From: Actinomycetes bacterium
GTDB taxonomy: Bacteria > Actinomycetota > Acidimicrobiia > Acidimicrobiales > Microtrichaceae
Direction of reading: 5' to 3'
Assembly: GCA_024222295.1 (NCBI GenBank)
Contig: JAAEPF010000034.1
Location: forward strand, 186,001-250,000
DNA length: 64,000 nt
The notes under the pieces were generated by a model. The model saw only the letters and a program-made list of their open reading frames with translations, was not told where the DNA came from and made no database searches. Each line of letters starts with the position of its first letter. The first letter of the stretch is position 1. A program made the position numbers and the translations under genes. Of the stretch, positions 40,155 to 51,578 are shown one piece after another.

Positions 40155-40829
40155 TCACGAGAAGTCGTCAGCGCCTTCGCTGGTCTCGGGGTCGCTGCGC
40201 AGCACCGTGATCAGCAGGAAGTAGAGCAGCGGCAGGCACAGGTACAGCAGCAGGCTGAGTGTCGGTGACCAGTCGGCGACCGCCATGGCCAACAGGTAGA
40301 TCACGATCGGCGCGGCCGCCAGGTACCAGCCGACGCGCCGGTCCTCGCCGACAGTCGGCTCCCAGAGCAGGTCGGGATTGCGCACCACGTATCCGTACAG
40401 CGCGGTACGGGCGAGGCTGGCAGCGATGAGCACGACTCCGTAGACGTGCAGGGCGACGGGTTCGCCGTGGTATTCGCCGAGCAGTGCGGAGGCGAAGGGG
40501 ATCAACGCGGTGGGCAGCAGGAACAACAGGTTGAGCCACACGATTCCGCGGTCCGCGTAACGGATCTTGGCGAACAGGTCGCGATGCCACACCCAGTAGG
40601 TGCCGGTGATCCCGAAGCTGATCACCCATGCGATGAGCGTCGGGCCGACTTCGTCGAGGGCCTCGCGCAAACCGGTCGAGGGGAGGTCTGCCGGGACCGA
40701 GATCTCGAGCACGAGGATCGTGATGATGATCGCGAACACCCCGTCGGTGAACGCCGCGACCCGCGATGGATCGCGGTGCCGCGCGCGCCGGTCGGGAACC
40801 TGTGTCTGCGGGCCGCCGTCATCGACCAT
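40155..40829 (-). CDS. TMEM175-family (DUF1211) potassium channel-like protein
   Basis: A 224-residue protein with six predicted helices. The first carries the TMEM175 filter-helix signature RVAAFTDGVFAIIITILVLE (family pattern RxxxFSDGVFAI). Bacterial members of this length are tetrameric leak-type K+ channels. The rest of the helices (ISFGITGTYWVWHRDLF, LNLLFLLPTALIPFAS) also fit the family. It is the middle gene between an atypical SDR and a TetR regulator. Any effect of the regulator on channel expression is an inference from position only. Confidence 0.9.
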   Translation of the reverse strand: MVDDGGPQTQVPDRRARHRDPSRVAAFTDGVFAIIITILVLEISVPADLPSTGLREALDEVGPTLIAWVISFGITGTYWVWHRDLFAKIRYADRGIVWLNLLFLLPTALIPFASALLGEYHGEPVALHVYGVVLIAASLARTALYGYVVRNPDLLWEPTVGEDRRVGWYLAAAPIVIYLLAMAVADWSPTLSLLLYLCLPLLYFLLITVLRSDPETSEGADDFS

Positions 40830-41805: not shown

Positions 41806-44049
41806 GTGCAGCCACCCGGCGTGACGCTGAAGATGCCGGCATCGCTGCGCACTCCCGCGCGGGTGCTCGGACCGGCCCTCGCCGTGATGGCCTTCCAGCT
41901 GGTGGTGTTCTGGATCCCTCCGTTTGAGGAGCCGCAGGTCTACGTGCTCGGCCTCACCCAGGGACTGCTGGTGGCATTGATGGCGATGGGTCTCTCGCTG
42001 ATCCACCGCGCCAACCGGATCATCAACTTCGCACAGGCAGACCTGGGCATCGTGCCCGCCGCGCTGGCGGTGAATCTCCTGATGCTGTCGGGCATCAGCT
42101 ACCTGTTGGTGCTGTTCGGCGGGATTCTCCTGTCGCTGGTGGTCGGCGCCGTGGTCGAGCTCGCAGTGATGCGGAGGTTCTTCCGGGCCCCGCGACTGGT
42201 TGCCACGGTCGCCACCATCGGACTCGCCCAGCTGCTCGCGGTGACGGCGGTGTGGCTGCCGAGCGAGCTGTGGAACCGCCAGCCGGTCATTGAGCCCTTC
42301 CCCCGCGAGGTGTTCCCGTGGGACTTCACGGTCACCCTCAACGGCTTCCCGTTCCGCACGCCGTACACCATGGCCTGGATGCTGGCCCCGGCCGCCATGA
42401 TCGCAGTGGGAGCAGTGCTCCGCTACACCAACGTGGGCATAGCGATCCGGGCCTCGGCCGAGTCGGCCGACCGGGCACTGCTTCTCGGCATCCCGGTGAA
42501 ACGGATCCACACATACGTGTGGGCCATGGCCGGGGCGCTTTCGTTCATCTCGTTGTTCCTCTCGGCCGGCCTGTTCGGCCTGCCGGTCGTGGGGGCGCTG
42601 GGTCTCACCGTGTTGCTCGGTGCGCTCACGGCGGTGACCCTGGGCCGGCTCAACGACCTGCCGACGATCCTCGTGTCGTCGATCGCAGTCGGCATGCTCA
42701 TCCAGGCGGTGTCGTGGAAGAGCTCCACCTCGGTGCTCGGCCTGTTCGAGATCCCACTCAGCAGCCTCGCAGTGCCTGCGGCGCTGGGCGCCGTGATCGT
42801 GGCCACGCTGCTGCTGCGACGCGGCGGGTCCACCCGGCTCGACGCCGATACCTCGTCCACGTGGCGCAATGCCGAACAGGTACGCCCGGTGCCGCGGGAA
42901 CTGGCCCGCCTGCCCGAGGTGCGACTGGTGCGTTGGGCTGGGCTGCTGGTCGTGCTCGGCCTGGTCGTGGCCGCCCCCTGGCTGCTCGGCAGCACCGCCA
43001 ACGTCTCCAAGGCCGCAGCACTGGTCGCGTTCTCGATCATCGGCCTGTCGCTCGTGGTGCTGGTCGGCTGGGCCGGACAGGTCTCACTCGGCCAGCTTGC
43101 GTTCGCCGCGGTCGGTGGAGCGCTCGGCGCCAAGGCGATAGTCGACTGGGGCCTCGACCCTGCGATCGCAATCGGGATCGCTGCGCTGGCCGGCGCCGTG
43201 ACGGCCACGATCGTCGGGCTGCCGGCGTTGCGCGTGCGTGGCCTCTACCTGGCGGTTGTGACTCTGGCCTTCGCCCTGGCTGCGGTGGGCTACTTCCTCA
43301 ACCCCACGTTCTTCGAATGGGTACCCCAGGGCCGCATGTCGCAGCGCCCGGATGTGTTTGGTGTCTTCGGAATCGACTCGGCGCGGTCGTTCTACTTCCT
43401 GTGCATCATCGTGGGGGTGGTCGTGCTGGCCGCCCTCGAAGGCGTTCGTCGGTCGCGCACGGGCAGGGTGCTGGTGGCATTGCGCGACAACGAGGCCGGC
43501 GTGGCGGCATACGGCGTGTCGGTGGTACGCACCAAGCTGGTCGCGTTCGCCATGTCCGGGGCGGTGGCAGCTGTGGGTGGCGCGCTGTTGGTGCTTCTGC
43601 AGCGGGGCTACACCACCACCCTCTACCGGCCGTTCGACAACCTCGTCATCTTCTCCGCAGTCGTCGTCGGCGGTGTCGGTTCCCTCGTGGGTGGTGTCAT
43701 CGGGGCCGCGTTCCTCAAGGGAGGCGACTGGTGGCTACCCGGCAACTGGCGCCTGCTGGTGTCGGGAGCAGGTGTACTGATTGTGTTGCTGCTGCTGCCG
43801 GGCGGAATCGGTGGGGCCCTCTTCTCGCTTCGCGACTCCTTTCTGCGTGCGGTGGCGCGCAGGCGCGACATGGTCGTGCCGAGCCTGCTGGCGGACGTCG
43901 CGGAGACCGAGGCCGAGGTCGAGGAGGCGTTCGAGGAATCCGCCGCCCACATGGCTGCCGAGCAGCGCAGCGATGCGCCTGCCGGGACGGATTCTGCGGA
44001 GGCCGGTCCGGCGACCGATCCGGGTGATGAAGTGGGAGCGCCGCAATGA
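41806..44049 (+). CDS. Fused LivH-LivM permease of a HAAT-type ABC importer
   Basis: A 747-residue protein joining the two permeases of a branched-chain amino acid-type importer. Residues 1-345 are LivH-like (GLLVALMAMGLSLIHRANRI, then NFAQADLG, RASAESADRALLLGIPV). Residues 365-690 are LivM-like (LSLVVLVGWAGQVSLGQLAF, RGLYLAVVTLAFA, GRVLVALRDNEAGVAAYGV). A charged cytoplasmic tail of about 55 residues (TEAEVEEAFEESAAHMAAEQ) closes the chain. GTG 41806 is used; GTG 41821 or ATG 41833 are options. The stop overlaps the next gene (ATGA). Liv-type fusions of this kind occur in actinobacteria. The substrate may be an amino acid, amide or urea-like compound. Confidence 0.93.
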   Translation: MQPPGVTLKMPASLRTPARVLGPALAVMAFQLVVFWIPPFEEPQVYVLGLTQGLLVALMAMGLSLIHRANRIINFAQADLGIVPAALAVNLLMLSGISYLLVLFGGILLSLVVGAVVELAVMRRFFRAPRLVATVATIGLAQLLAVTAVWLPSELWNRQPVIEPFPREVFPWDFTVTLNGFPFRTPYTMAWMLAPAAMIAVGAVLRYTNVGIAIRASAESADRALLLGIPVKRIHTYVWAMAGALSFISLFLSAGLFGLPVVGALGLTVLLGALTAVTLGRLNDLPTILVSSIAVGMLIQAVSWKSSTSVLGLFEIPLSSLAVPAALGAVIVATLLLRRGGSTRLDADTSSTWRNAEQVRPVPRELARLPEVRLVRWAGLLVVLGLVVAAPWLLGSTANVSKAAALVAFSIIGLSLVVLVGWAGQVSLGQLAFAAVGGALGAKAIVDWGLDPAIAIGIAALAGAVTATIVGLPALRVRGLYLAVVTLAFALAAVGYFLNPTFFEWVPQGRMSQRPDVFGVFGIDSARSFYFLCIIVGVVVLAALEGVRRSRTGRVLVALRDNEAGVAAYGVSVVRTKLVAFAMSGAVAAVGGALLVLLQRGYTTTLYRPFDNLVIFSAVVVGGVGSLVGGVIGAAFLKGGDWWLPGNWRLLVSGAGVLIVLLLLPGGIGGALFSLRDSFLRAVARRRDMVVPSLLADVAETEAEVEEAFEESAAHMAAEQRSDAPAGTDSAEAGPATDPGDEVGAPQ

Positions 44050-47000
44050 CCGCGCCACTCCCGATGCAGGGACCCGGTCGGTGGGGGCGGGCTGCCAAAG
44101 CACTCGCCCATCCGGTGGACACGGCGCGGGCAATGCTCGACGACGGCCCGGTCATGGTGCTCGTCATCCTGTTCCTCCTCAACGGCGTCGATGAGCTCAC
44201 ACGCACCGCCTTCGGTGTCCTGGCACCCGACATCGCCGATGACTTCGGCGTCGGCCTGACCGGGATCTTCACGGTGCTCGCCTTCGTGGCTGCGGTGGCA
44301 CTCGGCCTGCAGGTACCGGTCGCCACCCTTGCCGACCGGTACAACCGGGTGCGCCTCGCCGTGTTCGGCGGAATGGTGATGGCCGTCTTCTCGACCCTTG
44401 TGGGCTTCTCGCCCAACATCTGGATCCTCGGCATCACGATGGGCGCCACAGGGCTGGGCAAGTCGTTCATCGACCCGACCCACAACTCGCTGCTGGCGGA
44501 CCACTTCTCGCCGGATGTCCGCGCCCGTGTGTTCGCCTTCCACCGGGCCGCCAACTCGGTGGGCCAGTTCGCCGGACCGCTGCTGGCCGGCTTCATCGCC
44601 TACTACTTCTCGTGGCGGGCCCCCTTCATCCTGTTCGGCCCGATCATCCTGCTGGTCGCGCTGCTGGCGCTGTTCATCAAGGAGCCCATCCGCGGCCGAT
44701 TCGAGCGCGAGGCCGCCGGAGCGAACGAGGAACTGCTCGACATCGAGGAGCCACCACCGTCGATGGCGGAGGCCTGGCGGATGTGCTGGAAGGTCGACAG
44801 CCTCCGGCGGATCTACCGCACCTTGCCGTTCCTGGCACCGGCGATCGTGGGGTTCGTCTCGTTCGCTTCGTTCCTCTACGCGGACGAGTTCGGGCTCGAC
44901 GAGCGGTCGCGTGGCGTCGCCGCCTCGTTCACCGAGCCGGCCCAGATCCTCGGGTTGGTGATCGGCGCCTCGGTCGGCACGCGCATGTACCGCAAGGACC
45001 CTCGCCTGGTGTTCAGGTTCCTCGGTACGGTCGCACTTGGGGTGGCGGTGCTCGCCGTGGCATTCGCGCTGTCACCCGCGTGGTTCCTGAGCATCGGCGA
45101 GATCAAGCTGCCCTGGGTGGCGCTGTTGATCAATGCCGTCATCTCCGGGTCGCTCGCGTTCCTGATTCCCGGGATCCTCGCCGCACTGTCGGTGGCGATC
45201 CCTCCCCGTGCCCGGGCGATGGGCTTTTCAATGATGTCGGTGTTCGTGATCCCGGGCCTGGTCCTGCTGCCGATCATCGGTGCGCTCGGTGACGCCTGGG
45301 GCATCCGTACCGGGATGATGCTCATGGCACCGATGTTCGCCATCGGTGGGTTCTCCATCCAGAGCGCAGGGGTGCTGATCAAGCGCGACATCGACGACGT
45401 GTGGACGGGTTCAGCGGCCCGCGCCGAAGTGCTCCACCAGCGCCGTGAGGGTGTGGCCAAGCTGCTGCTCGTGCGCGGTGCCGACGTTTCCTACGGCGAC
45501 GTGCAGGTGCTGTTCGGCGTGGACTTCGAAGTCGACGAAGGGGAGATCGTCGCCCTGCTCGGCACCAACGGTGCCGGCAAGTCAACCCTTCTGAAGGCGA
45601 TCTCGGGCATCGCCGAGGCGGACCGGGGTGCGGTGCTGTTCGACGGGGTCGACATCACACACGCGCCGCCCAACGAGATCGCGAGCAAGGGGATCGTGCA
45701 GATGCCCGGAGGAAAGGGCGTGTTCCCGACCCTGTCGATCGCCGAGAACCTGCGGGCCGCAGCCTGGATGAACCGCCGCGAGGCCGACGTGGTCGACGAA
45801 CGGATCGCCGAGGTCTACGAGATGTTCCCGGCGCTCAACTCGCGGCGCAGCGAGGCGGCGGCGAACCTGTCGGGCGGCCAGCAGCAGATGCTCGCGCTCG
45901 GCATGGCGTTCCTGTCGCGGCCACGCCTGCTGATGATCGACGAGCTCTCCCTCGGCCTGGCTCCACTCGTGGTCGAGCAGTTGCTCGGCACGGTGCGCGA
46001 GATCGCGAACCGGGGCACCACCGTGATCATCGTGGAACAGTCCGTCAACGTGGCGCTCAGCCTCGCCGACCATGCGTTCTTCATGGAAAAGGGCGAGATC
46101 CGCTTCAGCGGGCCGACCGCCGAGCTGCTCGAGCGCCCCGACGTGCTGCGCTCGGTGTTCATGGAGGGCGCTGCCAAGGGAGCAGGGTCGGCCAACGGCA
46201 ACGGCAGTGCCGACCGGTCGGACGGTGGCGGATCCACCGAGCCGGTCACCCGGCGCCGCGAGCGGGAACGCTCCGATGACACCGCACTGCGCCTCGCCGG
46301 AGTCACCCGGCGCTTTGGTGGCATCACCGCGGTGCATGAGGTCGACCTCGACATCCGCGCCGGGGAGATCGTGGGGATCATCGGTGCCAACGGTGCGGGC
46401 AAGACCACGCTGTTCGACATCATCTCCGGGTTCACGAGCCTCGACACGGGCCGCATCGAGTTGTGCGGTCACGACATCTCCCAGCTGTCACCGCACAAGC
46501 GAGCGGCTGTCGGGCTGGGCCGGTCGTTCCAGGACGCGGCGCTGTTCCCGAGCCTCACCGTGGAGCAGACGCTCGCGGTCGCGCACGAGATGTCGATGGA
46601 TGTCCGCAATCCCCTCATCGAGGGCCTGTGGCTGCCGGCCGCCTACGAGAGCGAGGAGGCGGTCGCGGAGTCGGTGGACAGACTGGTCGACCTGTTCGGC
46701 CTCGGTGCCTTCCGCTCCAAGTTCGTGCACGAGTTGAGCACCGGGTCACGGCGGATCGTCGACATAGCTGCGCTGGTGGCACACCGACCTGACGTCGTGC
46801 TCCTGGATGAGCCGAGCTCCGGAATCGCACAGCGCGAGTCCGAGGCACTGGTGCCGGTCATAAACCGCATGCGCGACGAGATGGGCCTCACGATCGTCGT
46901 GATCGAGCACGACATGGCGCTGCTCACCGGGATCGCTGATCGGCTCGTTGCCCTCGAGAGCGGTTCGGTGATCGCCCGGGGCGCACCCCACGAGGTCCTG

Positions 47001-47084
47001 GCAGACCCGGCAGTCGTGCAGTCATACCTTGGAGGCTCTCAGGTGGCGATCGCACGCAGCGGAAGCGGGGAGCCACAATCGTGA
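44046..47084 (+). CDS. MFS transporter fused to LivF- and LivG-type ABC ATPases
   Basis: A 1012-residue triple fusion in one uninterrupted frame. Residues 1-430 form a complete major facilitator domain with 12 helices and motif A (ATLADRYNRVR). Residues 460-690 form a LivF ATPase (Walker A GTNGAGKST near 507, signature LSGGQQQM near 608, LSLGLAPLVVEQL after Walker B). After a Gly/Ser/Arg-rich linker, residues 745-1000 form a LivG ATPase (Walker A GANGAGKTT near 780, degenerate signature LSTGSRR, Walker B VVLLDEPSSG). The gene lies between the LivH-LivM fusion (ATGA overlap) and the binding protein, so both ATPases must serve that importer. The role of the attached MFS domain is unknown. Confidence 0.92.
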   Translation: MTAPLPMQGPGRWGRAAKALAHPVDTARAMLDDGPVMVLVILFLLNGVDELTRTAFGVLAPDIADDFGVGLTGIFTVLAFVAAVALGLQVPVATLADRYNRVRLAVFGGMVMAVFSTLVGFSPNIWILGITMGATGLGKSFIDPTHNSLLADHFSPDVRARVFAFHRAANSVGQFAGPLLAGFIAYYFSWRAPFILFGPIILLVALLALFIKEPIRGRFEREAAGANEELLDIEEPPPSMAEAWRMCWKVDSLRRIYRTLPFLAPAIVGFVSFASFLYADEFGLDERSRGVAASFTEPAQILGLVIGASVGTRMYRKDPRLVFRFLGTVALGVAVLAVAFALSPAWFLSIGEIKLPWVALLINAVISGSLAFLIPGILAALSVAIPPRARAMGFSMMSVFVIPGLVLLPIIGALGDAWGIRTGMMLMAPMFAIGGFSIQSAGVLIKRDIDDVWTGSAARAEVLHQRREGVAKLLLVRGADVSYGDVQVLFGVDFEVDEGEIVALLGTNGAGKSTLLKAISGIAEADRGAVLFDGVDITHAPPNEIASKGIVQMPGGKGVFPTLSIAENLRAAAWMNRREADVVDERIAEVYEMFPALNSRRSEAAANLSGGQQQMLALGMAFLSRPRLLMIDELSLGLAPLVVEQLLGTVREIANRGTTVIIVEQSVNVALSLADHAFFMEKGEIRFSGPTAELLERPDVLRSVFMEGAAKGAGSANGNGSADRSDGGGSTEPVTRRRERERSDDTALRLAGVTRRFGGITAVHEVDLDIRAGEIVGIIGANGAGKTTLFDIISGFTSLDTGRIELCGHDISQLSPHKRAAVGLGRSFQDAALFPSLTVEQTLAVAHEMSMDVRNPLIEGLWLPAAYESEEAVAESVDRLVDLFGLGAFRSKFVHELSTGSRRIVDIAALVAHRPDVVLLDEPSSGIAQRESEALVPVINRMRDEMGLTIVVIEHDMALLTGIADRLVALESGSVIARGAPHEVLADPAVVQSYLGGSQVAIARSGSGEPQS

Positions 47085-47117: not shown

Positions 47118-48911
47118 ATGAAAACACAGGGGGTGTGTCCGTTGTTGCCTGAAGACGACACGCCGCGCAACGACGCGGCCAGGATGATCCGCAAGTGGGG
47201 GCCGTTCTCGGCGATCATGGCCGCGATCGCGCTCGTGGGCGTGCTGGTCCTGGTCAACGAGCCAAGCGACACCGAGCAGGTCGCCAGCCCCGGCGCGGGT
47301 GGCGAGTCCGCCGGCGCAGGCGAGGATGGGGAACCCGGAATCGGCGCCCCCGATCCCGTCGGGCAGATGCCCCTCACCTACGCGGAGGCCGAGGAGGAGG
47401 GCACGGTCGACGACTACGACTGGGGCGACAACTGTGACACCGAGCGCGGCACCATCAAGCTACCGAGTGTGTACGCAGCGCCCTGCGTGCCGGTGTGGGA
47501 GGGGGACAACGGCGGTGATACCTCCACCGGCGTGACGGGCGACTCGATCAGGGTCGTGTGGTACGACGCGTCCGAGTCCGGCGGCCTGGACTCACTGCTC
47601 GGCGACGCCGGGCTCAAGGACACCTCCGAACAGCAGTACGCGACGATCCAGGACTGGTCCGAGCTGTATGCATCGGTCAGTGAGACCTACGGCCGCGAGG
47701 TGGAACTCGTGCGCTACGCGGCGACCGGCGCATTCGACGATGCGGTCGCCGCACAGGCCGACGCCGAGCTGATCTCACAGGACATCCAGCCCTTCGCAGT
47801 CCTGGGCGGGCCACCCAGCGACGGTGGTGCCTTCGCGGACGAGTTGGCCCGCAACGGCATCATCTGCATCGGCTGTGCACTCGGCATGCCCGAGTGCAAG
47901 ATGCGCGAGAACGCGCCATACAGCTGGGGCAACTCCCCGGCGGTATCGCACTTCATCGATGGCCTGACTGCATGGGCGACACCGAGTGAGGGGCACACCG
48001 GCCTGGTCGGCAATGCGGAGTACGCCGGCGACCCGGCCTTGCAGGCCCAGGAACGGAAGTTCGGCGTGATCCACTTCGAACAGGATCCGCCGGTGATGAC
48101 CGTCTGTCCGGGGCCTTCGGCATGGGGCGAGGATTGGCTGGTCGAGACCTACCTGCTCGATTTCGCCACGATGCCCCAGGTGGGCACCGAGCTCGTGGCC
48201 AAGATGAAGACGGCGGGAGTCACGTCGATCTTCTTCGGCGGCGACCCGCTCATGCCCATCTACCTCACCAACGCCGCCGAGTCCCTCGACTACCACCCCG
48301 AGTGGATCTTCACGGGCACCGTGCTCACCGACACCAACTCGTTTGCCCGCCTCTACAACCAGGACCAGATGCGCCAGGCCTTCGGCGTTTCCCAGACCGG
48401 CGTGCCGGTCAACTCCGACAACGGAGGTGCCCTTGCGTTGTACCGCTGGTACTTCGGCGCGGACGCGTTCCCCGACGCCAGGGCGGGCTATGCGGTGCTC
48501 AATGCCAACATCCCCCGCCTCTACCGGGGCATCCAGCTCGCGGGGCCCGACCTGACACCCGAGACGTTCGAGTTGGCCATGTTCCGTATTCCACCGCTCG
48601 GTGGGGACCCCGTGTTCCCACAGCAGAGCCACGGTCGCTGGGGCTACTTCCCGGAGGTCGACTACAACGGCACCGACGACCTCGCCGAGATCTGGTGGGA
48701 CGCGGATGCCGAGGGTCTCGACGAGACCGACAAGCCCGGCAAGGGCATGTGGCGTTACGCCCGCGGCGGTGCCCGGTTCACCCCGGACAACCCGCCGGAG
48801 CCCGCCCCCTTCGTGGAGGAGGACACGGTGACGCGCTTCGAGGAACTGCCCGAGGAGAGCCGTGGCGGGACCTACCCGCCGCCGGCCGGGTCTCCGGCCG
48901 CATCTTCCTGA
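47118..48911 (+). CDS. Type I substrate-binding protein of the HAAT importer, membrane-anchored
   Basis: A protein of up to 597 residues. A single N-terminal hydrophobic helix (WGPFSAIMAAIALVGVLVLV) anchors it; no lipobox is seen. An acidic Gly/Glu-rich linker is followed by a periplasmic-binding fold of the Leu/Ile/Val receptor type (GDSIRVVWYDASESGGLDSL, AVLGGPPSDGGAFADELA, VTSIFFGGDPLMPIYLTNAA, VDYNGTDDLAEIWW). Several cysteines could form disulfides. ATG 47118 lacks a Shine-Dalgarno because a palindrome abuts it. TTG 47142, with AGGGGG nine bases upstream, and ATG 47184 are reasonable alternatives. It completes the importer encoded by the two genes upstream. Confidence 0.88.
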   Translation: MKTQGVCPLLPEDDTPRNDAARMIRKWGPFSAIMAAIALVGVLVLVNEPSDTEQVASPGAGGESAGAGEDGEPGIGAPDPVGQMPLTYAEAEEEGTVDDYDWGDNCDTERGTIKLPSVYAAPCVPVWEGDNGGDTSTGVTGDSIRVVWYDASESGGLDSLLGDAGLKDTSEQQYATIQDWSELYASVSETYGREVELVRYAATGAFDDAVAAQADAELISQDIQPFAVLGGPPSDGGAFADELARNGIICIGCALGMPECKMRENAPYSWGNSPAVSHFIDGLTAWATPSEGHTGLVGNAEYAGDPALQAQERKFGVIHFEQDPPVMTVCPGPSAWGEDWLVETYLLDFATMPQVGTELVAKMKTAGVTSIFFGGDPLMPIYLTNAAESLDYHPEWIFTGTVLTDTNSFARLYNQDQMRQAFGVSQTGVPVNSDNGGALALYRWYFGADAFPDARAGYAVLNANIPRLYRGIQLAGPDLTPETFELAMFRIPPLGGDPVFPQQSHGRWGYFPEVDYNGTDDLAEIWWDADAEGLDETDKPGKGMWRYARGGARFTPDNPPEPAPFVEEDTVTRFEELPEESRGGTYPPPAGSPAASS

Positions 48912-49754: not shown

Positions 49755-51578
49755 ATGGCCACAGACGGCGAAGCCGCAACCGATGAGCGAACGCAACACC
49801 GCGAGGAGTTGAGGGCGAAGTACGCCGCGGAGCGAGACAAGCGCCTGCGGTCCGACGGGAACGCCCAGTACCTTGCGCCTTCCGGTCGGTTCGCCCACCT
49901 CTTGGATGATCCGTACACGCCTCGGTCAGACCGCGACCCGGTCGACGACGAAGTCACCGTCGCCATCATCGGTGGCGGCTTCGCCGGGTTGTGCGCCGGA
50001 GCCCGGCTGCGCGAGGCGGGCATCGACGACCTGCGCATCATCGAGACAGGCGGCGACGTGGGCGGCGTCTGGTACTGGAACCGCTACCCAGGGGCGATGT
50101 GTGACACGGCGGCGATGATCTATCTGCCGCTGCTCGAGGAAACGGGCTACATGCCCACCATGAAGTACGTGTACGGCCACGAGATCTTCGAGCACGCCCA
50201 GCGCATCGCCGACAAGTGGGACCTGCGCCGCAACGGCCTGTTCTCCACCGAGGTCGAGACACTCGAGTGGGACGACAGCTCCGACCGGTGGGTGATCACG
50301 ACCGACCGCGGCGACACGGTACGGGCGCAGTTCGTCGCGATGGGCACAGGGCCACTGAGCATCCCGAAGCTGCCAGGGATCCCCGGCATCGAGGAGTTCA
50401 CCGGCCATACCTTCCACACGGCTCGCTGGGACTACGACTACACCGGCGGCGATCCCACCGGCAAGCCCATGGAGAACCTCGCCGACAAGCGGGTCGGGAT
50501 CATCGGCACCGGTGCCACCGCCGTGCAGTGCATCCCGCCGCTGGCACGCGACTCAAAGGAACTGAACGTGTTCCAGCGCACTCCTTCGTCCATCGACGTG
50601 CGCAACAACCATCCGATCGACCCGGAGGAGTTCTCGAAGCTTGAGCCCGGCTGGCAGCGCGACTGGCTGATGAACTTCGCCACGCTCCAGACCGGCGGTT
50701 TCGCGGATGAGGACTACGTGATGGACGGATGGACCGACATAGCGAAGCGCATCCGCGATCGCATCATCGAAGAGATGCAGACAAGCGGTGAAGCCGGCCT
50801 CGAGGTGATGCTGCGGGCCTTCGAGGACTCCGACGACGAGAAGATGGACGAGATCCGTGCCCGCGTCGACGAGATCGTCGAGGATCCTGCCGTCGCCGAG
50901 GCGCTCAAGCCGTGGTATCGCCAGCTGTGCAAGCGGCCGTGCTTCCACGACGAGTACCTGCAGGCATACAACATCTCGGGCACCCACCTCGTTGACACCG
51001 ATGGCCAGGGAGTGGAGCGCATCGACGCCGCCGGGGTATGGGCCAACGGCGAGCACTACGAGCTCGACTGCATCGTGTTCGCATCCGGCTTCGAGGTGAG
51101 CATCGCCCACAAGGCCAACTACGAGACCGTCGGCCGGGCTGGGCTGAAGCTGTCCCAGCACTGGGAGGACGGCATGCAGAGTCTGCACGGCACCCACGTG
51201 CACAACTTCCCCAACCTGTTCATCATCGGGCTGTCCCAGGGGGCCAACCTGATCTCCAACATCACCTCCAACCTTGATGAAGCCGGCAAGTCGATCGCGG
51301 CGGTCGTCGCACATGCCGGTGAGGTGGGTGCCGTGAGGGTCGAAGCCACCGAGGAGGCCGAGGCCGCGTGGGTCGCCCAGTTCGAGGGCCAGGAGGGCGG
51401 GTTCCTGGGCAACCCGGACTGCACGCCCGGGTACTACAACAACGAGGGCCAGCCCACTGGTCGCCGTGAGCGGCTCAACGCGAGCGGCTACCCGCAGGGC
51501 CCGGTCGCGTACTTCAACTACATCGACCGCTGGCGCAACGCCGGTGACTTCGACGGGCTGGAGTTCAGCGCCGGCTAG
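49755..51578 (+). CDS. Baeyer-Villiger-type FAD-dependent monooxygenase
   Basis: A 607-residue type I Baeyer-Villiger monooxygenase that inserts oxygen next to a ketone using NADPH and FAD. The FAD motif AIIGGGFAGLCAG is near residue 70, the fingerprint FxGxxxHxxxWD is FTGHTFHTARWD near 215, and the NADPH motif is GIIGTGATAVQCI. The N-terminal extension of about 60 residues and the C-terminal region (VAYFNYIDRW) fit the long form found in cyclic ketone and steroid monooxygenases. ATG 49755 follows a GGGGTGGGG stretch. It diverges from a TetR gene across a palindrome, suggesting substrate-induced expression. Confidence 0.93.
   Translation: MATDGEAATDERTQHREELRAKYAAERDKRLRSDGNAQYLAPSGRFAHLLDDPYTPRSDRDPVDDEVTVAIIGGGFAGLCAGARLREAGIDDLRIIETGGDVGGVWYWNRYPGAMCDTAAMIYLPLLEETGYMPTMKYVYGHEIFEHAQRIADKWDLRRNGLFSTEVETLEWDDSSDRWVITTDRGDTVRAQFVAMGTGPLSIPKLPGIPGIEEFTGHTFHTARWDYDYTGGDPTGKPMENLADKRVGIIGTGATAVQCIPPLARDSKELNVFQRTPSSIDVRNNHPIDPEEFSKLEPGWQRDWLMNFATLQTGGFADEDYVMDGWTDIAKRIRDRIIEEMQTSGEAGLEVMLRAFEDSDDEKMDEIRARVDEIVEDPAVAEALKPWYRQLCKRPCFHDEYLQAYNISGTHLVDTDGQGVERIDAAGVWANGEHYELDCIVFASGFEVSIAHKANYETVGRAGLKLSQHWEDGMQSLHGTHVHNFPNLFIIGLSQGANLISNITSNLDEAGKSIAAVVAHAGEVGAVRVEATEEAEAAWVAQFEGQEGGFLGNPDCTPGYYNNEGQPTGRRERLNASGYPQGPVAYFNYIDRWRNAGDFDGLEFSAG

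Follow-up and report, generated by a model that had tools for sequence, protein, structure and literature searches.

Primary transporters of the ATP-binding cassette (ABC) type and secondary transporters of the major facilitator superfamily (MFS) are normally separate machines. In this work, we describe an operon in which a single frame joins an MFS permease to the two ATPases, LivF and LivG, of a HAAT-type importer. It lies in a stretch of 64,000 nucleotides, hereafter the window, from an Actinomycetes bacterium of the class Acidimicrobiia (Microtrichaceae; assembly GCA_024222295.1, contig JAAEPF010000034.1, positions 186,001 to 250,000). Certain described systems resemble this arrangement in one respect or another. 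ArsA-ArsB and other carriers that have gained an ATPase show a carrier paired with an ATPase, as in the MFS-LivF pair, but ArsA is not a HAAT ATPase, and ArsA-ArsB works without a binding protein and on separate chains. Secondary permeases that use a binding protein are found in the TRAP and TTT systems, whose permease folds are unrelated to MFS. In the fusion, the permease is an MFS domain, which may also make use of a binding protein. For the ABC part, the comparison is with the HAAT importers (LivKHMGF), and for the MFS part with the Spinster transporters (HnSpns, Spns1, and Spns2).

Like the HAAT systems, the operon in the window encodes a type I substrate-binding protein (SBP), two permease domains of the LivH/LivM kind (BPD_transp_2), and LivF and LivG ATPases with intact motifs. 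It differs from them in that an extra MFS domain precedes LivF, LivH is joined to LivM and LivF to LivG, and the SBP is about 600 residues long with an N-terminal hydrophobic stretch. The genes are read from the forward strand. The LivH-LivM fusion (41806–44049, 747 residues) contains both HAAT permease domains (PF02653, 152.5 bits in two stretches), and it overlaps by 4 bases with the MFS-LivF-LivG fusion (44046–47084), which is a single open frame of 1012 residues with an ATG start. The SBP gene follows at 47118–48911, with its start possibly at 47184, and has been assigned from its frame, from the Pfam matches of its family, and from a structure model. The window SBP itself has no Pfam match, although 7 of the 22 family members in the alignment do match Peripla_BP_6; the model (pLDDT 84.8) fits LivK (3td9) with a Z of 20.0 and an rmsd of 3.9 over 325 aligned residues. 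The hydrophobic stretch near its N-terminus was judged by eye. The first-pass annotation had placed the fusion between a LivH-LivM fusion and the binding protein, and the Pfam matches, the SBP family matches, and the comparison of the SBP model with LivK bear this out. Since LivH and LivM are both in the operon, we rejected the idea that the MFS domain replaces a missing ABC permease.

The frame had also been described as a complete MFS domain followed by two ABC ATPases, and the open frame, Pfam, and the structure model all agree with that description. Pfam reports MFS_1 (PF07690) at 139 bits (cut-off 33.4), ABC_tran in two stretches (198.1 bits against a cut-off of 25), and, at residues 975–997, the BCA_ABC_TP_C tail. 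The predicted structure (pLDDT 82.2, pTM 0.65, 19 aligned sequences) shows the helices of the MFS domain joined through a helical linker to two ATPase folds. The MFS domain covers residues 26–455 (44121–45410), and the linker from the last MFS helix to LivF, a helix in the model, covers residues 445–467 (45378–45446; 420–442 in the model numbering, to which 25 is added for fusion residue numbers). The LivF-type ATPase extends over residues 469–720 (45450–46205) with its Walker A at 506–514 (45561–45587), and the LivG-type ATPase, assigned by Pfam and NCBIfam and including the tail, over residues 745–1008 (46278–47069) with its Walker A at 780–788 (46383–46409); both Walker A positions come from the motif alignment. 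The core residues of Walker A, signature, and Walker B in both ATPases are invariant in all 19 aligned full fusions, which confirms the earlier statement that the Walker motifs are intact, and the LivG signature reads LSTG-RR. For the LivF stretch, the best matches are the NCBIfam LivF/UrtE models, and this part of the fusion model aligns with 1ji0 at a Z of 31.0 over 240 residues (38% identity in the structure comparison). The 50 matches listed in a Foldseek search with the whole fusion are ABC proteins, and the MFS part was matched in a second structure comparison. A urea transporter (TIGR03410, UrtE, above the cut-off) was considered and rejected; we make no claim on urea because the whole-protein score of TIGR03410 spans two ATPase stretches. 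Overall, the operon encodes every part of a HAAT-type importer and, in one chain with the ATPases, an MFS permease. The fusion is single-copy in its genome, where the next MFS protein reaches 209 bits on the MFS profile as compared with 537 for the fusion.

The MFS-LivF fusion is a conserved family, and the window holds one hybrid among many rather than a unique one. In a scan of named genomes, we have read the best 80 of 141 relatives (loci L065–L144, which overlap in part with the G stretches; L038 and L144 give identical LivF rows). One frame covers the MFS domain and LivF in 76 of the 80 loci, and in the other four the contig ends inside the MFS frame. A stop hidden at the MFS-LivF junction, or homologues always split into separate genes, had been named earlier as what could undo the fusion. 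Instead, the junction is open in all 76 loci where it can be read, and this, together with the phylum-sample matches given below, rules out a sequencing error or a chance frame. LivG belongs to the same frame in 69 of the 80 loci, and in five more the contig runs out once LivF has begun; LivG is a gene of its own at L069, and the L092 frame closes behind LivF, close to where its contig ends. LivH and LivM share one frame in 74 loci, the remainder being mostly cut by the contig start, and an SBP gene lies downstream in 65, with contig ends accounting for at least part of the rest.

Regarding the taxonomic range, which was to be mapped, the family is widespread in one class, and a second arrangement of it reaches the Streptomycetaceae. 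The titles of 77 of the 80 loci name Acidimicrobiia, their members, or broader actinobacterial names. Three metagenome-assembled genomes are titled Bifidobacterium breve (L067), Acidobacteria (L089), and Euryarchaeota (L099); their operons group with those of Acidimicrobiia, and the titles are probably wrong. In a first sample of the phylum, 13 of 198 genomes match at an E value of 1e-100 or better, own genome included, ten of them over the full length and three over MFS-LivF. With the MFS profile, 20 of 396 phylum-sample genomes match at 1e-60, and among the matches listed, 42 of 43 lie in frames of at least 648 codons, a count by frame length and not by reading each one. At the level of the class, the profile finds a match at 1e-40 in 93 of 296 genomes, some free-standing relatives included. 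Two arrangements occur, that is, LivH-LivM beside MFS-LivF-LivG and MFS-LivF beside LivH-LivM-LivG, and the MFS domain is joined to LivF in both. The second one is also found on the 5.7 Mb plasmid of Embleya sp. NBC_00888, Streptomycetaceae (L205:5752-11170); two more matches to the MFS profile are located in long frames of the same plasmid. Four loci (L175, L177, L196, and L204) end inside MFS and are uninformative on the fusion, and at L178 an assembly gap (N) falls at the junction, so that its MFS counts as one of seven MFS-LivF rows and its LivF frame as a row without MFS. In the open-licence literature, we have found no description of an MFS domain joined to LivF or another ABC ATPase, an absence that carries little weight.

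The distance between the MFS domain and LivF is nearly fixed in this family. Both ends of an MFS protein lie in the cytosol and therefore suit a join to LivF. Measured from Asp448 to the Walker A of LivF, which could be done in 90 of the 93 main-type rows, the distance is 58 in 83 proteins, 59 in four, 54 in one, and 49 in two; it is 59 in four of the six second-type proteins measured. The LivF-LivG linker, on the other hand, varies freely, with 34 different lengths from 59 to 140 in the 78 measured. Judged by its length, the MFS-LivF linker behaves as part of a folded unit and not as a loose tether. The invariant D448 and PxRG residues were considered as a fusion-specific contact motif and rejected, since they are conserved also when seven free-standing relatives are included and thus give no interface signal.

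The MFS domain shows the features of its superfamily, namely the MFS_1 match, a 12-helix fold in the model, and motif A. By profile, its best solved relative is one sequence common to 6e8j and 6e9c (E 6.1e-20). Entry 6E9C is HnSpns, whose functional residues are given in a published study (PMC9440201), and a similar network is discussed for a mycobacterial Spns in a preprint (PMC13192786). By fold, the MFS model resembles OxlT (Z 40.0 over 384 residues) as well as Spns1 (9boi, Z 38.7 over 410 residues, 19% identity), and the Z for Spns1 lies within about 1 of those for OxlT, SLC37A4, and VMAT2, so the fold comparison separates these little. With the HnSpns columns set from the profile alignment to 6e8j/6e9c, the same residue is found at Asp41, Arg42, Trp102, and Arg122 in 87, 82, 76, and 85 of the 93 main-type rows (three of which end before LivF), and at the motif A positions Asp87, Arg91, and Asp142 (D97, R101, and D152 in the window) in 93, 93, and 92. 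Thus most of the fused family shares with the Spinster transporters the Asp-Arg pair of the first transmembrane helix (TM1), the Trp of TM3, the Arg of TM4, and motif A. The seven free-standing relatives keep the Asp in six cases, and the Trp and the Arg in all. The conserved residues, the complete modelled fold, and the purifying selection described below led us to reject a degenerate MFS for the family as a whole. On the other hand, the family departs from Spinster in that its Glu129 column in TM4 is mostly Lys/Arg, the Asp60 column is not kept, the clade of the window is without the Asp, Trp, and Arg, and the MFS domain is joined to ABC ATPases. Because of the Glu129 and Asp60 columns, the domain is best described, from its sequence, as a Spinster-like branch rather than a proven Spinster. 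Arg289, of the periplasmic Asp60-Arg289 salt bridge, falls in a weak part of the alignment (3.1 bits).

We have further correlated the distance matrices of the domains over the 55 loci with all six of them. The SBP distances correlate best with those of MFS (0.83), followed by LivH (0.76), LivG (0.69), LivM (0.68), and LivF (0.66); when the other four are held, the partial correlation with the SBP is 0.50 for MFS and 0.20 for LivH. MFS is the best partner of the SBP in 496 of 500 bootstraps for the raw and in 486 of 500 for the partial values. The correlation stays high when the window clade is removed (0.86, partial 0.55), and MFS still leads when 150 random columns per domain are used (0.79 versus 0.71 for LivH). 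Rate alone does not explain it, since the mean distances of LivM (0.83) and LivH (0.81) are nearer to that of the SBP (0.88) than the mean distance of MFS is (0.62). Within MFS, the central and periplasmic layers follow the SBP at 0.80 and 0.77 and the cytosolic layer at 0.66, while LivM is followed by the cytosolic layer at 0.80 and by the C half at 0.84. Between the periplasmic and cytosolic layers, all of 1000 bootstraps give a positive contrast of SBP versus LivM, and between the N and C halves 996 of 1000 do. With the SBP alone, the periplasmic-cytosolic difference is zero or less in 12 of 1000 bootstraps; the N-C difference is so in 116 of 1000 and is therefore not secure. This result should be read as an association of distances, not as proof of contact.

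At one locus, L176:9-3397, the MFS domain is possibly paired with a binding protein in nature. A 479-codon MFS frame ends there where LivF would begin, and an SBP gene starts 14 bases later. On the SBP profile, this protein reaches 532 bits, compared with 125–312 for the SBPs of operons without MFS, and it clusters with the fused lineage. No LivH, LivM, LivF, or LivG is present on the 9 kb read, and the contig ends just after the SBP gene; the upstream gene, on the other strand, encodes a T2SSE-type ATPase. The same genome also carries a separate ABC operon without MFS (L193).

Operons of this latter type are next of kin to the ABC part of the fusion. In them, LivF-LivG has its own frame, or LivH-LivM-LivF-LivG forms one frame, and the SBP gene comes first. 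The single-chain importers of the same class have a related SBP and related ABC domains, with close LivF-LivG, but they are without MFS, and in the loci read (L063, L201, and L202) their operon begins with the SBP gene. One such importer is encoded in the genome of the window itself (L063:3747-7874, contig C24), where LivH-LivM-LivF-LivG forms one frame of 1375 codons behind a related SBP; the single frame recurs in other genomes of the class (L201, L202). Of the 118 MFS domains collected, 10 were dropped as more than 97% identical, leaving 108. In the MFS tree, the 93 main-type rows, the seven second-type rows, and the MFS of L176 form one group with a support of 100, which would tentatively fit one joining event of MFS to LivF. 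The tree program warns of long branches, however, and a free-standing protein, L179, falls inside the fused group. This gene (L179:6526-7860, reverse strand) is near genes for FAD-dependent oxidoreductases and may have lost an ATPase part or be a relic of the donor. L056 is without MFS, yet its LivF nests among the fused ones beside L045 (support 94).

The window belongs to a clade in which the residues of the proton switch have changed. The columns of HnSpns Asp41, Trp102, and Arg122 are occupied in the window by Thr52 (44199–44201), Met112 (44379–44381), and Met132 (44439–44441). In the window, L065, L066, L067, and L068 alike, Asp52 is replaced by Thr/Ser, Trp112 by Met/Leu, and Arg132 by Met/Leu. 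Of the three, L069 keeps Asp52 alone, and none is present in L139, which sits in another part of the tree. Counted as independent events, the joint loss of the Asp and the Arg is not significant (four pairs the same way, none opposite, two unchanged). We calculated the ratios of non-synonymous to synonymous substitution rates (dN/dS) for 15 pairs, two of which give no MFS value; as dS is near or above 1, these ratios are rough. In most pairs, MFS is as constrained as the other parts. Between the window and L066, the ratio is 0.10 for MFS, 0.13 for LivF, 0.14 for LivM, 0.18 for LivH, and 0.21 for both LivG and the SBP; between the window and L065 it is 0.24 for MFS, level with the other parts (0.20–0.27). 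Considering this constraint despite the loss of the switch, the MFS domain of the window clade appears to have been kept working after the switch residues went.

Taking these results together, we tentatively suggest, at a probability of about 0.47, that the operon encodes a complete HAAT-type importer with a tethered, working second permease for the same substrate. The importer is complete in SBP, LivH-LivM channel, and LivF/LivG, and its ATPase chain carries the Spinster-like MFS domain at the N-terminus, where the helix would hold it against the ABC complex. Next to LivHM, which is driven by ATP, the MFS domain would most likely give the cell an inexpensive secondary path for uptake, being fed by the SBP or sharing its substrate. 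Most of the family may use proton coupling. In the window clade, where the switch residues are gone, the domain would be a facilitator or would depend on some other means of driving or gating; gating by the ATPase would be the boldest reading.

A number of observations weigh against this suggestion. The loops inside MFS keep their length about as well as the linker (loop 6-7 in 86 of 93), so the linker is like a folded unit, but its length is fixed no more strictly than that of the fold itself. At Glu129, 65 of 93 rows, the window among them, have Lys and 13 have Arg, and the Asp60 column is without Asp in the profile alignment; because of these changes proton coupling is not assured in the family. 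Regarding the correlations, the layers were assigned from the model helices and the textbook MFS topology, the distance matrices were correlated without full phylogenetic control, and L067–L069 group with the window by the MFS tree and apart from it by the SBP tree. The SBPs of the deep fused loci score 210–397, which overlaps the 125–312 of the operons without MFS, so the SBPs divide by lineage, and their type does not simply follow the presence of MFS. L176 is a single example, from a draft assembly of 860 contigs with 89% completeness and 8% contamination, and as its contig ends right after the SBP gene, ABC genes may lie further on, which makes the case for a second permease weaker. Finally, the MFS domain evolves fast between L104 and L140, with a dN/dS of 0.44 against 0.11 for LivF.

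The first-pass annotation had offered an exporter coupled to uptake, a gate or scaffold, and a true hybrid pump as functions; the evidence leans instead to a second permease sharing the substrate of the SBP. The scaffold or gate we regard as rather unlikely. In this explanation, MFS no longer transports and is an accessory membrane domain, like a TMD0 or a regulator, which places, stabilises, or gates the importer. The near-constant linker, the tracking of LivM and LivF by the cytosolic layer and C half of MFS, and the joint loss of the switch residues in the window clade all speak for it, and the relatives without MFS suggest that the ABC half does not need the domain for transport as such. 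However, motif A and most of the charges in TM1 and TM4 are kept in most of the family, the central layer of MFS tracks the SBP, and L176 has an MFS domain with no ABC gene seen alongside, though its contig ends after the SBP. An exporter, which would release a product or exchange a by-product of the imported substrate, we consider clearly less probable. Spinster relatives are described in connection with the export or salvage of lipids, and CoA-linked enzymes are encoded near some loci; but it is the SBP, acting outside, that best tracks MFS and accompanies it in L176, and the neighbouring genes differ between loci.

Two further explanations both seem very improbable. In a true hybrid pump, ATP hydrolysis by LivF would drive or gate the MFS cycle through the linker, for which a helix of near-constant length and an MFS domain constrained without its proton switch would be suitable. 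But the operon already supplies LivF and LivG with LivH and LivM, the partners they normally have, and to our knowledge an ATP-driven MFS hybrid pump has no precedent. In a neutral gene fusion, the operon genes would be joined for equal dosage and MFS would work alone. This lineage fuses HAAT genes freely, as the prevalence of the LivH-LivM frame and the LivH-LivM-LivF-LivG frame elsewhere in the same genome indicate; the near-constant MFS-LivF linker, compared with the freely varying one between LivF and LivG, and the joining of MFS to LivF in both arrangements argue against it. Only slightly less improbable is a bolder form of the second permease, in which MFS would be an SBP-dependent permease on an ABC motor, one SBP would feed two channels, and in the window clade LivF would drive or gate MFS via the linker. 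We know of no binding-protein-dependent MFS permease.

The neighbourhood of the operon does not name its substrate. In the window, the operon is flanked by TetR regulators, a short-chain dehydrogenase, and an FMO-like oxygenase (49755–51578, forward strand), with a TetR-type gene between the SBP gene and the oxygenase. A protein of the TMEM175 family, which is a potassium channel family in Pfam, is encoded next to the operon at 40155–40829 on the reverse strand. The genes ahead of the operon include, at L067 and L068, a full-length one of the AMP-binding (acyl-CoA-ligase-like) kind, its family having been checked for L067; a broken-up stretch of this kind precedes the operon at L069, and at L066 an upstream FMO-like gene is a weak relative (27%) of the one in the window. 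Over the 80 loci, an AMP-binding cluster is found near 15 operons and a PhyH cluster near nine, with families checked on one member each and on two for AMP-binding. Leaving aside the genes of the operon itself, no cluster in the neighbourhood exceeds 15 of 80 loci, and the AMP-binding and PhyH clusters are too scattered to name a substrate. As a weak guess, by analogy with the Spinster kin and from the CoA-linked enzymes near some loci, the substrate class might be an amphipathic or lipophilic carboxylate.

This natural covalent pair of ABC and MFS transporters has been kept in many members of one class, and it makes the cooperation of two energy sources directly testable. Nature also provides controls for such tests, namely the ABC operons without MFS, a possible MFS plus SBP that does without ABC, and clades that either keep or have lost the residues of the proton switch. 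If it is true that the MFS domain takes its substrate from the SBP, the MFS superfamily would join the binding-protein-dependent secondary transporters. The fusion offers a natural way to test whether a single machine can draw on two energy sources for the same nutrient.

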